NCBI GenBank assembly: GCA_018824085.1
Contig: JAHJHI010000048.1
Coordinates: 1 to 43,266 of the forward strand
Length of the DNA stretch: 43,266 nt
Origin: Gammaproteobacteria bacterium
Lineage (GTDB): Bacteria; Pseudomonadota; Gammaproteobacteria; Burkholderiales; Rhodocyclaceae
Direction: 5' to 3'
Positions 4,854-14,026 of this stretch are shown here, piece by piece. Each line of letters begins with the position of its first letter. Position 1 is the first letter of the stretch. The notes under the pieces were generated by a model. That model worked only from the letters and a program-made list of their open reading frames with translations. It ran no database searches and was not told the origin of the DNA. The position numbers and the translations under genes are program-made.

Positions 4854-6245
4854 TCACATCACGTTGGCATGCGGGTGCAGCGGGTGTTCCAGTGCGTCGG
4901 CAATGAGGCGCAGCGCGAAGTCGCAGTCATCGCGCGACATCGGGCCGCCCAGACAGACGCGCACTGCCTCGGGCGGCGTGCCGTCGGTGCTGAAGGCCGC
5001 GCTGGCCACGACGGCCACACCGCGCGCGCGCAGGCCGGATGCGAATTCGACCATGGACGCTTCGGCGTCGAGCGGCAGCCACAGGTGGAAGCCTTCGGGC
5101 TGCGCGCGCAGCGCCCGCCCGGCCAGATGGCGCGCCGCCATCGACTGACGCGCCATTGATTCGGCGCGGATCGCCTGCAGCATCGCCTCGGCCGTGCCGT
5201 CGTTGATCCAGCGTGTCGCGAGCGCCGTGGTGACGGGCGAACACATGACGGTGGTGGCGCGCAGCGCGCCGGCCAGCCGCTCCGCCTGGCGCGGGCCGGG
5301 CGCGTGGATGTAGGCGGCGCGCAGACCGGCGCCGAAGCACTTCGACAGACCGCCGATGTAGTAGGTCAGCGCCGGCGCCAGCGTGGCCAGCGGCGGCGGC
5401 GCGTCGCGCGGCAGCATGGCGTAGGCGTCGTCCTCGATGATGGGCACGGCGTAGCGCAGCGCGACGTCGACCAGCGCCTCGCGGCGCGCGCGCGTGAAGG
5501 TGGCGGTGGTGGGATTGAGCAGCGTCGGATTGCAGTACAGCGCGCGCGGCTTCAGCGTCTTGCAGGCATGCTCGAAGGCGTCGACGTTCGGGCCGTCGTC
5601 ATCCAGCGGCAGCGCGTGCAGTTGCACGCCGAGTTGCGCGGCAATGGCCTTGATGCCCGGATAGGTGAGCGACTCGACGCAGATCATTTCACCGGGGCGC
5701 GCCAGCAGCGACACCAGCGCCGTCAGCCCGGCATGGATGCCGGGGCAGGTCAGCACGCGTTCCACCGCGCACAGCGGCAGGCGCTGCTGCAGCCAGCGCA
5801 CGCCGGCGACGCGGTCCTCGCGCGTGCCGCCGAAGTCCTGGTAGCGCAGCATGTCGTGCCAGTCCGACTGCGCCATCACCTGCGCAGCGCTGTCGCGCAG
5901 CTGTGCCATCAGCGCCGCGTCCTGCGGCTCGGGCGGCAGGTTCATCGTCATTTCCGCGCCGCTGCCGCCGCGCAGCTTGATGCCGGGCGAGCTGCCGCGC
6001 ACGAAGGTGCCCATGCCGGCGCGCGAATCGATCAGGCCGCGCTTGCGCGCTTCGGCATAGCCGCGCGCCACGGTGGTGTAGTTCAGTTCGAGGTCTTCGG
6101 CCAGCTCGCGCAGTGTGGGCAGGCGGTCACGCGCGCTGAGCCGGCCGCTGCGCATGTCTTCGGCGATGAGGTCGGCGATCAGCAGATAGGCCGGCTTGCC
6201 GCCGTTGCGTATGCGCTTGAGCCAGAGCTGCGAAGTCTTGTCCAT
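4854..6245 (-). CDS. MocR-type regulator, last gene of the Nit1C operon
   Basis: The 463-residue protein starts MDKTSQLWLKRIRNGGKPAY and carries a GntR winged helix (about residues 15-85: GRLSARDRLPTLRELAEDL, NYTTVARGYAEARKRGLI). A class I aminotransferase-like domain follows, with NPTLLNPTTATFT, IIEDDAYAML and GGLSKCFGAGLRAAYIH, in which Lys302 is the PLP lysine. It starts ten bases after the stop of the LnmK-like gene and in the same direction, so it is probably cotranscribed with the Nit1C genes. Most MocR genes sit divergent from their target. It could be the operon's own PLP- or amine-sensing regulator, or a biosynthetic aminotransferase that kept its DNA-binding domain. The Shine-Dalgarno is weak. 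Confidence 0.92.
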   Translation of the reverse strand: MDKTSQLWLKRIRNGGKPAYLLIADLIAEDMRSGRLSARDRLPTLRELAEDLELNYTTVARGYAEARKRGLIDSRAGMGTFVRGSSPGIKLRGGSGAEMTMNLPPEPQDAALMAQLRDSAAQVMAQSDWHDMLRYQDFGGTREDRVAGVRWLQQRLPLCAVERVLTCPGIHAGLTALVSLLARPGEMICVESLTYPGIKAIAAQLGVQLHALPLDDDGPNVDAFEHACKTLKPRALYCNPTLLNPTTATFTRARREALVDVALRYAVPIIEDDAYAMLPRDAPPPLATLAPALTYYIGGLSKCFGAGLRAAYIHAPGPRQAERLAGALRATTVMCSPVTTALATRWINDGTAEAMLQAIRAESMARQSMAARHLAGRALRAQPEGFHLWLPLDAEASMVEFASGLRARGVAVVASAAFSTDGTPPEAVRVCLGGPMSRDDCDFALRLIADALEHPLHPHANVM

Positions 6246-6255
6246 CGGGTGTCGG

Positions 6256-7116
6256 TCAGACCAGTCGTCGTTTGCGGGTGAGCACGTCGGCGATGCGCAC
6301 GCCGTCTGCGTTGCGGCGCACGCGCCACCAGTGCGCAAGATCCGCCGCGTCCTCGCGCGCCGCCAGCAGTTCGACCCGCACCGTCTCGCCGGGATCGATG
6401 TTGCCGTAGAAATACAGTTCGCGCTCGCTGGTGATCGCCGGGCGCAGCCCGAAGCAGGCCAGCTCGGCGCGATCGGCCAGTGCCTGGAAACTGGCGAAGT
6501 ACAGCAGGCCGGCGCCGTTGAAATCATTGTGCGGACACGGCGTGAACGCGGCCGCGCACAGCGCCTCGCCATGGGCCACGGGTTGCAGCCCCATGCGCGC
6601 GACGCCTTCGCCACTGCGGAACAGCCGGGCGCGCGCCTGCAGCGACAGCGCGGCGTCGGCCAATGCCGGGTCGCCATTGCCGGTGCCCTCGACCGGCGCA
6701 CGCACGATGTCGCGGTTGCTGCCGCCGTCGCGCCGCACGAAGGCCGACAGCAGCTCGACGCGCGCCGCACGCAGCGTGCCGCTGCGCAGCGTCTGCGCGC
6801 TGAAGTGCCGGGCGCGGCCGGGCGAGGTCGCGCGCACGGACAGCGAGAACGGCGCGTTCTCGCCCAGCGCATCGAGCTGCGCCTCGCGCAGATGCACCGC
6901 CGTCAGCGCGGCATAGCTCCTGTGCCCGGCGGCATCGGCAAACGCCGGCCGCTGCATGCCCTGCGCGCGCGCGATCGCCAGCCAGTGCAGGTGGCCGCAC
7001 TCCTTCAGCAACCAGTTCTCCGACAGCCCGTACAGCCCGAGTTGCGGCATGCCGGCGCAGTAGTGCTGCTGCAGCGCAGCCGGCGGCCGCAGGCGCTCGG
7101 CGGCGTCCATCAGCAT
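6256..7116 (-). CDS. LnmK/Pnap_2097-family acyltransferase-like hot-dog protein
   Basis: A 286-residue protein starting MLMDAAERL. The ATG at 7116 is preceded by GGAGG at seven bases, and the next in-frame ATG at 7110 overlaps the upstream stop as TGATG. Features such as GMPQLGLYGLSENWLLKECGH, HNDFNGAGLLYFASFQALADRAEL and a C-terminal ELYFYGNIDPGETVRVELL look like the double hot-dog LnmK/Pnap_2097 group. LnmK itself acts as a methylmalonyl-CoA acyltransferase/decarboxylase in leinamycin biosynthesis. Here an acyl-CoA or acyl-carrier substrate is an inference. It is embedded between the flavoenzyme and MocR genes of the Nit1C operon and would supply an acylation step absent from the core cluster. 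Confidence 0.7.
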   Translation of the reverse strand: MLMDAAERLRPPAALQQHYCAGMPQLGLYGLSENWLLKECGHLHWLAIARAQGMQRPAFADAAGHRSYAALTAVHLREAQLDALGENAPFSLSVRATSPGRARHFSAQTLRSGTLRAARVELLSAFVRRDGGSNRDIVRAPVEGTGNGDPALADAALSLQARARLFRSGEGVARMGLQPVAHGEALCAAAFTPCPHNDFNGAGLLYFASFQALADRAELACFGLRPAITSERELYFYGNIDPGETVRVELLAAREDAADLAHWWRVRRNADGVRIADVLTRKRRLV

Positions 7117-12589: not shown

Positions 12590-13544
12590 CGGCGTTGCTC
12601 CGGGTGAATGTGTGGTGCATGGAAACCGTGGTGCCGGCCGGCCGGTCGTTGATCGCGAGGCTCAGCAGCTCGGGGCGCGCGTAGTGGCCGACCGAATCCA
12701 TCATGCGTTTGCGCTTGGTCACCAGCCCCATGTCGAGATCAGCCACCACCATGCCTTCGCCTTCGGTCAGCGGCGGCGCGAGGTGCACGCCCTCAGGCGA
12801 CACGATGGCGGTGTGGCAGCCGCCGCGCAGCGCGCGCTGCAGGCCGGCGTCCGGCGTGATGGACTGGATCTGTGCGTCGCTCAGCCAGCCGGTGGCGTTG
12901 ATGACGAAGCAGCCCGACTCCAGCGCGTGATGGCGGATCGTCACCTCCATCTGGTCGGCGAATATCTGGCCGACCATGGAACCGGGGAACTGCGCGCAGT
13001 GGATTTCCTCGTGCTGCGTCATCAGTGCGTAGCGCGCCAGCGGGTTGTAGTGCTCCCAGCAGGCGAGCGCGCCAAGCCGGCCGACGGCGCTGTCGACAAC
13101 CTTCAATCCGCTGGCGTCGCCCTGCCCCCACACCATGCGCTCGTGGTAGGTCGGCGTGATCTTGCGGCGCTTGAGCAGCAGCGCGCCGTCGGCGTCGAAC
13201 ACCAGCTGCGTGTTGTAGAGACTGCCGTGGTCGCACTCGTTCACGCCGAGCACGACCACAATGGCGCGTGCCGCCGCGCGCTCCGCCACCGCCTGCGTCA
13301 CCGGCCCCGGCACCGTCACCGCCCGCTCGTACAGCTTCAGGTGATCGGCGCCCATCTGCACCGGCGGCCGCACGAAGGAGAAGTACGGGTAGTAGGGAAC
13401 GAAGGTTTCCGGGAACACGGCGATCCGTGCGCCCCGATCGGCCGCCTCGTCGATCGCCGCCAGCACGCGTGCCAGCGTGCCGTCGGCGGATTCGAGGTCG
13501 GGCGCGATCTGGATCGCCGCCGCACGGACGATGGGCGCGCTCAT
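12510..13544 (-). CDS. nitC: Nit6803-family nitrilase (NitC-like)
   Basis: A 344-residue branch-1 nitrilase. The catalytic triad is visible: Glu46 in [15 protein letters not shown], Lys128 in [13 protein letters not shown], and Cys162 in [15 protein letters not shown]. It should hydrolyse a nitrile to a carboxylate plus ammonia, or to an amide. The symbol nitC follows the P. pseudoalcaligenes nit1C cluster, where this gene was reported as needed for growth on cyanide. The start ATG at 13544 shares one base with the stop of the preceding gene (TGATG); the Shine-Dalgarno is weak, so translation is probably coupled. The C terminus carries a tail of about 26 residues after RSNADEHD that overlaps the radical SAM gene and looks poorly constrained. 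Confidence 0.94.
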
Positions 13545-14026
13545 CACAGGGTCCAGGTGTCGAGGATGAAGGCGTTGTCCTTGCGATGCAGCAGGATGAT
13601 GTCCAGCACGTCGAGCGGATTGATCGGGCGGATGCCGTCGATCAGCGCGCCCTCGCCGTGACCGTAGAGCGCCTGCAGCGCGAAGCGGCACGCATAGACC
13701 TTGCCGCCCTCTTCGATGAACTTCTCGATCTGCTTGTTGAAGTTCTGCGCGCCCGGAAACGCCTCGTCGCCCAGCGTCGGGAATCCGCGCTTGACGCCGA
13801 GGGTCACGCCCGGCCCGTACAGCAGCACCGAGGTGTCGAAACCCTTGCGCTTCAGGCGGGTGGCCTGCAGCAGATTGACGAAACCGATGGACCCTTCGAA
13901 TGCGACGGTGTGGAAGGTGACGAGCGCCTTTTCGCCGGGTTCGGCCTTGACGTCCTCGAACACCTTCTCTTCATAATCGACGAGGAATTCGCCCTTCTGG
14001 TTGGCGGGCCTGGTGACTTTGGGCAT
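13544..14026 (-). CDS. nitB: MSMEG_0572/Sll0783-family nitrogen starvation response protein (NitB-like)
   Basis: A 160-residue protein that opens the Nit1C operon. It starts [21 protein letters not shown] after GGAGAG at good spacing. Landmarks are [41 protein letters not shown] and [21 protein letters not shown], which resemble a DsrE/DsrF-like fold. The cyanobacterial homologue Sll0783 is induced on nitrogen starvation and affects polyhydroxybutyrate accumulation. The molecular function is unknown. A sigma-54-like promoter lies about 60-80 bases upstream, consistent with nitrogen control, and the stop overlaps the nitrilase start. Confidence 0.93.

Follow-up and report, generated by a model that had tools for sequence, protein, structure and literature searches.

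A Nit1C operon with an LnmK-like acyltransferase, a probable methylmalonyl-CoA mutase supply and a MocR-type regulator

What does the Nit1C gene cluster do for the bacteria that carry it? No gene of the cluster had a demonstrated role at its description, according to the accessible part of that account (Podar 2005), and in the available sections of the later literature surveyed most of the genes are still without an assigned role. The same literature, as far as it was accessible, connects Nit1C with growth on cyanide in Pseudomonas, with GlnR-dependent peroxide resistance in Mycobacterium smegmatis (PMC6039565) and, through sll0783, with a polyhydroxybutyrate (PHB)-related mutation in Synechocystis. 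We examined the cluster in a contig of 43,266 nucleotides from a Rhodocyclaceae genome (JAHJHI010000048.1 of assembly GCA_018824085.1), the whole of which is called the window. Here a run of ten genes on the minus strand (4854–14026) joins the Nit1C genes to an LnmK-like acyltransferase gene and a MocR-type gene. With a probability of roughly 0.68, this run represents a Nit1C operon extended by two genes, one for an LnmK-like enzyme that draws (2R)-methylmalonyl from methylmalonyl-CoA mutase and one for a MocR that acts as regulator, under a promoter of the sigma-54 type. The observations on which this reading builds are the gene content, its linkage, the mutase complement of the hosts, the enzyme family and modelled fold, and the promoter-like elements.

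Is the LnmK-like gene a regular companion of Nit1C? Three samples bear on this question: a draw of 299 Pseudomonadota genomes, a draw of 300 Burkholderiales genomes, each including the genome of the window, and a collection of named genomes from which the best 80 of 159 LnmK relatives were examined, the weaker half being outside the counts. The samples overlap, and L120 and G091 are apparently one genome, with identical mutase coordinates. The named loci were searched by tblastn with the proteins of the window, which favours close kin; a gene absent from such a locus is one that tblastn did not find at the set thresholds, and some of these loci end at contig ends.

In the Pseudomonadota draw the family model TIGR04099 matches nine genomes at E 0.001, six of them above the cut-off and four strongly (283–299 bits). 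All four of the strong genomes (>250 bits) are among the 13 of 299 that have a Nit6803-family nitrilase above cut-off, and the LnmK-like gene lies within about 8 kb of the nitrilase (Fisher p = 2e-6 for the co-occurrence, kinship being ignored). Only three of the 300 Burkholderiales genomes exceed the TIGR04099 cut-off, and all three have the MSMEG_0572-family gene on the same contig, a gene that exceeds its own cut-off (TIGR04044) in 12 of the 300. Among the named LnmK loci, 78/80 hold at least one Nit1C gene and 70/80 hold all seven core genes; one of the two exceptions, L127, begins at a contig edge and has a nitrilase elsewhere in its genome. The LnmK-like gene follows the MSMEG_0569 gene by at most 200 bases in 65 of the 77 loci that hold the latter, and in six Pseudomonas loci it lies at the opposite side of the cluster. 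Where it adjoins MSMEG_0569, the records of NCBI name it ‘Pnap_2097 family protein’. We conclude that the LnmK-like gene is a true accessory of Nit1C. A preliminary description of the locus, made from the letters alone, had proposed that the idea would fall if the LnmK-like and MocR genes did not accompany Nit1C in other genomes; in the half of that check which sequences can answer, they do accompany it. Two loci hold a variant Nit1C cluster with LnmK: at L133 (4430–10810) the search recovered no 0572, glycosyltransferase, 0570 or 0569 gene, and at L112 (3969–10798) no GNAT, AIR-synthase, glycosyltransferase or 0570 gene.

Where might such an enzyme obtain its acyl group? An open reading frame of about 710 amino acids recurs directly 3′ of the LnmK-like gene across loci, and in a plasmid record of Burkholderia anthina the gene at that position carries the annotation methylmalonyl-CoA mutase. 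This cis mutase lies directly downstream in 37 of the 80 LnmK loci, as against 0/9 Nit1C loci without LnmK. The cis mutases keep the RQY motif in 36/36 examined (that of L104, too short, was left out) and the arginine of the VR motif in 33 of the 36, which is all that the pattern matched. We take the two motifs to be marks of specificity for methylmalonyl-CoA as opposed to isobutyryl-CoA. In the window the LnmK-like gene has no linked mutase, and its genome has a mutase above 800 bits.

If more than half of the LnmK loci lack the cis mutase, what do their genomes hold in its place? The model TIGR00641 was run against the whole genomes of 79 named hosts (50 + 29; L077 was left out). A match above 800 bits was called canonical, a line drawn once it had become clear that no score among these genomes fell between 744 and 853 bits. 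A canonical, that is housekeeping, mutase occurs in 0/36 genomes with a cis mutase. Among the 43 genomes without a cis mutase, 40 have a full canonical mutase (at least 853 bits) and two have canonical-looking fragments (L061, L108). For comparison, a mutase above 800 bits is present in 119 of the 299 Pseudomonadota genomes at large; within that draw it is present in 4/4 genomes with an LnmK-plus Nit1C cluster, the window's genome included, as against 5/9 of those whose cluster lacks LnmK. Methylmalonyl-CoA epimerase was sought in 50 of the 80 named genomes, the window's own genome being outside this set. It exceeds the cut-off in 0/29 cis-mutase genomes (L068 has one match below the cut-off) as against 14/21 of the others, and three Methyloversatilis relatives have no epimerase above the cut-off. 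In the cis-mutase genomes, therefore, only the (2R) isomer should be available. The mutase complement and the absence of the epimerase together point to (2R)-methylmalonyl-CoA as the likely substrate of the LnmK-like enzyme. The preliminary description had suggested an acylated product; the linked mutase supports the acylation independently, and it does not tell what the product is.

What kind of enzyme is encoded? The product of gene 9 (6256–7116, minus strand, with the start at 7116 or 7110) is full-length and exceeds the cut-offs of both TIGR04099 (289.8 bits; cut-off 125) and TIGR04098 (255.3 bits; cut-off 100). Its AlphaFold2 model has a mean confidence (pLDDT) of 92.6. When this model was compared with the PDB by Foldseek, the best seven matches were all LnmK structures (TMq 0.74–0.79), followed by acyl-ACP (acyl carrier protein) thioesterases. 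Tyr68 aligns with Tyr62 of LnmK, by its position in chain 6x7l, and is invariant in 56/56 aligned sequences; we take Tyr62 to be the catalytic residue of LnmK and the fold to be that called double hot-dog. The protein of the window thus has the family models, the modelled fold and the aligned Tyr62 in common with the LnmK of leinamycin biosynthesis (PDB 4hzn, 4hzo, 4hzp, 6x7l and related entries), from which it differs in sequence, the structure alignments giving 16–19% identity. According to the title of a cited work, LnmK specifies (2R)-methylmalonyl-CoA. In the accessible part of a further report, the chemistry of LnmK is acyl transfer with decarboxylation, and the proposed product of the LnmK homologue LrgK is propionyl-ACP (PMC9396626).

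With which Nit1C enzymes might the acylation step work? Two genomes carry the LnmK-like gene in a satellite, apart from their complete cluster. Caballeronia sp. dw_19 has a complete MocR–Nit1C–glycosyltransferase cluster (L144) and, separately, a satellite of 0572, GNAT, 0569, LnmK and mutase genes (L063). A Paraburkholderia metagenome bin has a like complete cluster (L143) and a separate satellite of 0569, LnmK and mutase genes (L081). Neither complete cluster has an LnmK or mutase gene within the 20 kb examined. Because of these two satellites, the LnmK step seems to work with its own 0569 flavoenzyme, apart from the nitrilase. The glycosyltransferase (GT) was considered as the partner of LnmK and rejected: it is present in 4/4 LnmK-plus clusters of the Pseudomonadota draw, but in merely 51 of the 70 named LnmK loci with all seven core genes. 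As for the earlier suggestion of a glycosylated product, the GT is missing from 19/70 of the complete loci and is known as an insertion, so that glycosylation would be optional.

What role might be played by the last gene of the run? The product of gene 10 (4854–6245, minus strand) matches the GntR and Aminotran_1_2 families of Pfam, both above cut-off, and scores 382.4 bits against the EhuR model, below the cut-off of 480. It has the GntR and aminotransferase-like domains in common with EhuR and other MocR regulators, and differs from EhuR in falling below that cut-off and in its linkage to Nit1C. A MocR gene lies divergently beside 0572 in 11/12 of the other Nit1C clusters of the Pseudomonadota draw; only L056 differs, with no match to MocR within its 20 kb. 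Where a named LnmK locus holds both MocR and the operon, the two are divergent in 58/61 cases and codirectional in 3/61, all of the latter being Methyloversatilis. In 11 named loci with 0572, MocR was not found. A MocR at the operon tail was seen only in Methyloversatilis. Because of the divergent placement in most relatives and of repeats that precede the operon, MocR is probably the usual regulator of the cluster, and the idea of the preliminary description that the gene is a sign of biosynthesis is not supported. In the accessible part of a further report, MocR is tied to the cio cluster (PMC8567248).

Upstream of 0572 in the window, on the minus strand, lie a sigma-54-type −24/−12 site, TGGCATGGCGCATGCA (14088–14103; 10/11 specified positions), and a direct repeat, TTGATCGCA-N2-TTGATCGCA (14120–14139; 18/18 specified positions), which is the candidate MocR operator and begins 36 bases before the promoter-like site. 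A second, looser pair, TTGATCGGG/TTGATCGCA, was recognized by inspection at 14249–14270. Sigma-54-type sites before 0572 were counted with GG-N10-GC required and with the repeats masked, since in L057 and L058 the repeat would otherwise be the best match. A site of at least 10/11 is found in 63/71 other loci, 10/10 Pseudomonas loci and 2/4 Methyloversatilis loci (4/4 at 9 or more), compared with 6/710, 2/100 and 0/40 of the respective shuffled controls. The repeat, TTGATYGCA-N2-TTGATYGCA at 15/18 or better, is found in 36/71 other loci and 4/4 Methyloversatilis loci, and in 0/10 Pseudomonas loci, which have no MocR; shuffled controls give 0.6%, 2.5% and 1%, respectively. Of the 71 other loci, 69 have a divergent MocR, and 34 of these 69 have the plus-strand repeat. 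Both elements occur together in 37 loci, and in 33 of these the repeat starts 36 or 37 bases ahead of the promoter-like site; the Caballeronia satellite L063, with no MocR alongside, keeps both. These figures are consistent with a MocR that binds the repeats. Judged by its domains, the MocR-type protein does not belong to the sigma-54 activators; in Pseudomonas the Nit1C regulator is the sigma-54-dependent NitA, according to the accessible literature. Control by nitrogen starvation was examined through the sigma-54-type site and through sites for NtrC; the latter were not retained, the enrichment of an NtrC-like dyad being modest (at least 11/14 in 24/85 sequences, compared with 4.5% of shuffles) and the window scoring just 10/14.

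How might these parts act together? Methylmalonyl-CoA mutase would make (2R)-methylmalonyl-CoA from succinyl-CoA. The LnmK-like enzyme would take up the (2R)-methylmalonyl group, probably decarboxylate it to propionyl and pass it to a carrier, from which the acyl group, propionyl or methylmalonyl, would go onto the product or an intermediate of the Nit1C enzymes. For hosts with a housekeeping mutase, such as Methyloversatilis, Azospirillum, Ancylobacter and Rhodoferax, the LnmK-like gene alone would be enough, and hosts without one would carry a dedicated mutase gene directly behind LnmK. The operon would be driven by the sigma-54-type promoter and regulated by MocR, whose gene in Methyloversatilis lies at the operon end instead of divergently, with the direct repeats as the candidate operator. 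Substrate, decarboxylation, carrier, acceptor and product are parts that we infer. Acylation of an intermediate or product with propionyl from (2R)-methylmalonyl-CoA is the most likely function of the LnmK-like enzyme, and some signs point to a cluster that makes an acylated metabolite rather than just degrading nitriles. A wider version seems possible, though we hold it only tentatively: Nit1C as a whole may be a biosynthetic pathway of nitrogen starvation that includes a nitrile step, with LnmK and mutase forming, together with 0569, a movable side arm for propionyl or methylmalonyl. The 0572 and GNAT genes would join this arm in one satellite, and the differing effects of Nit1C would stem from one metabolite.

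Several observations weigh against the mutase-fed acylation proposed here. The lnmKLM β-branching cassette includes ACP and 3-hydroxy-3-methylglutaryl (HMG)-synthase partners for LnmK, whereas neither a carrier protein nor an HMG synthase is found among the ten genes. Nine of the 13 Nit1C clusters sampled are without LnmK, and the arm is therefore dispensable for the core function. In Polaromonas glacialis (L076), the second of the two named loci outside the 78, an LnmK-like gene (3337–4188) is present and a search at E 1e-30 matched no Nit6803 nitrilase; in G121 and G268, whose TIGR04099 scores are just above the cut-off (about 131 bits), tblastn found no Nit1C gene within the 9.5 and 16 kb examined. 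As to the mutases, L109 lacks both the cis and the canonical one and has just a 573-residue relative. The cis mutase of L104 (10825–11373) is shortened and is the sole match in its genome at E 1e-50, and that of L088 (10855–12881) is split; the seven core genes and LnmK still give long matches at both loci. Some of the cis-mutase genomes hold further mutase-family genes, below 640 bits. In 35/71 loci the repeats fall below 15/18, and the genome of satellite L081, being a metagenome bin, could mix two strains. Finally, the cis-mutase label needs just two changes on the LnmK tree, which leaves one independent contrast pair on supported branches and two in all. The mutase pattern is clean across hosts, yet in statistical terms it comes close to one event on the LnmK tree, and common descent could explain much of it.

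Could the linkage and the complement be no more than an accident of descent, one LnmK–mutase pair having spread among hosts that lack a housekeeping mutase? In favour of this, two changes suffice on the LnmK tree, there are one or two independent pairs, and the hosts of the cis mutase come from five families (Burkholderiaceae 21, Pseudomonadaceae 9, Methylophilaceae 3, Oceanospirillaceae 3, Cellvibrionaceae 1), the LnmK hosts without it belonging to 13 named families. Yet five families are not one lineage, and the set is found on plasmids. Sixty plasmid records have an LnmK-like match, and the conjugative B. anthina plasmid carries, consecutively, a divergent aminotransferase-type regulator, eight Nit1C genes including the GT, Pnap_2097 and the mutase. 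Moreover, the 1.4 kb remaining on the contig of L100 (Zoogloeaceae), a locus that the tree puts in the cis group with modest support (87/87), contains no cis mutase, and its genome does have a canonical one; the adjacency of LnmK and mutase has been kept in 37 loci. We regard a mere accident of descent as unlikely.

Somewhat less probable still are two explanations that leave the LnmK-like enzyme outside a Nit1C product. The enzyme might make propionyl-ACP as the starter of odd-chain fatty acids in nitrogen starvation, Nit1C sharing its regulation and nothing else. A malonyl-ACP decarboxylase, YiiD, supplies a fatty acid starter in an analogous way. The lack of a carrier and an HMG synthase in the operon, the acyl-ACP thioesterases that follow LnmK among the fold matches and the product proposed for LrgK all favour such a starter; the position of the gene at Nit1C loci in 78/80 cases and its pairing with a 0569 copy of its own in two satellites point instead to the Nit1C pathway. 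Alternatively, Nit1C might be a catabolic system for nitrile or cyanide assimilation, in accord with the growth on cyanide, with LnmK and mutase disposing of the carbon skeletons of particular nitriles. Acyl transfer with decarboxylation is not a chemistry of disposal, however; the linked mutase is absent from all nine Nit1C loci without LnmK, and in two genomes the LnmK–mutase module stands apart from the nitrilase. We judge both proposals to be improbable, and to about the same degree. As for MocR, its aminotransferase-like domain and its place as the last gene of the run might suggest a biosynthetic pyridoxal-phosphate enzyme recruited to the operon. The GntR domain is retained, however, and the gene is divergent from the operon in all but the three Methyloversatilis loci, so that recruitment as an enzyme appears very improbable, and we return to MocR as the probable regulator.

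The Nit1C families were called with the curated models and cut-offs of NCBIfam. From the 5′ end of the operon, all on the minus strand, they are the MSMEG_0572/Sll0783 family protein (gene 1, 13544–14026; TIGR04044, 282.8 bits, cut-off 109.85), whose DsrE-like match is weak and under the cut-off; the Nit6803-family nitrilase (12510–13544; TIGR04048, 578.4, 502.6); the MSMEG_0568 family radical SAM protein (11453–12589; TIGR04043, 587.1, 303.7); the MSMEG_0567 family GNAT acyltransferase (10885–11466; TIGR04045, 232, 68.45); the sll0787 family AIR-synthase-like protein (9893–10888; TIGR04049, 465.1, 321.3); the MSMEG_0565 family GT (8707–9900; TIGR04047, 483.2, 259.85); the MSMEG_0570 family small protein (8418–8705; TIGR04042, 129.8, 79.85); and the MSMEG_0569 family flavin-dependent oxidoreductase (7110–8393; TIGR04046, 671.1, 498.35). 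The seven core families are contiguous, on one strand and above their cut-offs. Neighbours in the run overlap by 1–80 bases or are separated by 1–24 bases. The ten packed genes of the preliminary description are all present, with corrected coordinates, and its eight Nit1C families and its LnmK-like and MocR assignments were all borne out by the models and domains. The gene set recurs across other bacterial families and orders, which confirms that the operon is real and beyond chance; its ten genes presumably form one transcript. The nearest named relatives, Methyloversatilis discipulorum, M. universalis and M. thermotolerans, share all ten genes and their order, and the LnmK of the window falls among Methyloversatilis sequences on the tree; from these sequences, Methyloversatilis is the most likely host.

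Two of the smaller genes were considered for roles in acyl transfer. The GNAT protein was considered as a user of acyl-ACP donors in the manner of FeeM; its FeeM match (28.5 bits, cut-off 27) was judged unspecific. Although 27/32 of its homologues match FeeM at E 0.001, 31/32 hit the broad GNAT family as well, and the solved chains closest to the protein belong to other acetyltransferases; the FeeM match is therefore no evidence for an acyl-ACP donor. The MSMEG_0570 protein was rejected as the carrier: its predicted model is confident (pLDDT 94.5), but no PDB entry matches it by sequence (E 1) or by fold at E 0.001 (best E 0.61). The model may possibly represent a new small fold.

How does this operon compare with those already described? 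The seven core families and their order, as Podar gave it, are shared with Nit1C of the accessible descriptions (Podar 2005; nitBCDEFGH of Pseudomonas oleovorans CECT 5344; MSMEG_0565–0572; the sll0783 cluster), and the GT is inserted as in Burkholderia and Rubrivivax in the same 2005 account. The window differs in the LnmK-like gene added at the 3′ end and, from the Pseudomonas cluster as far as described, in having MocR, at the operon tail, in place of NitA. A mutase at the end of the NitraS-ATII Nit1C operon from the Red Sea was listed in 2016, without explanation in the accessible text (PMC4751646); by that description, NitraS-ATII lists a mutase, whereas the window has LnmK without a linked one. 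Nit1C with its GT, and the mutase in that one operon, were thus already known. In the literature searched, with most subscription journals outside it, we came across no account of LnmK in Nit1C, the mutase complement, the satellites or MocR as a Nit1C regulator, and no mention of Pnap_2097 or TIGR04099.

The mutase complement names methylmalonyl-CoA as the likely building block, and isotope feeding can thus be used to look for the product itself. The two satellites give an indication of the Nit1C enzymes that act beside the acylation step, and MocR is the likely regulator for those Nit1C clusters that lack the NitA of Pseudomonas. A made metabolite would fit the reports on cyanide growth, peroxide resistance and PHB alike; if the wider version above is true, cyanide assimilation, peroxide resistance and the PHB mutation would be consequences of one metabolite.

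The surroundings of the operon offer some minor observations. A gene for a FixG-like protein (3346–4848) is convergent with MocR across a five-base gap, and a simple scan 3′ of MocR gave no terminator. A second MocR-type GntR–aminotransferase gene lies on the plus strand at 218–1633, its product 26% identical to the MocR of the operon. On the other side, at 17624–21363, a PEP-CTERM protein is encoded beside a TPR protein of 933 amino acids, which suggests that a PEP-CTERM sorting system lies nearby.

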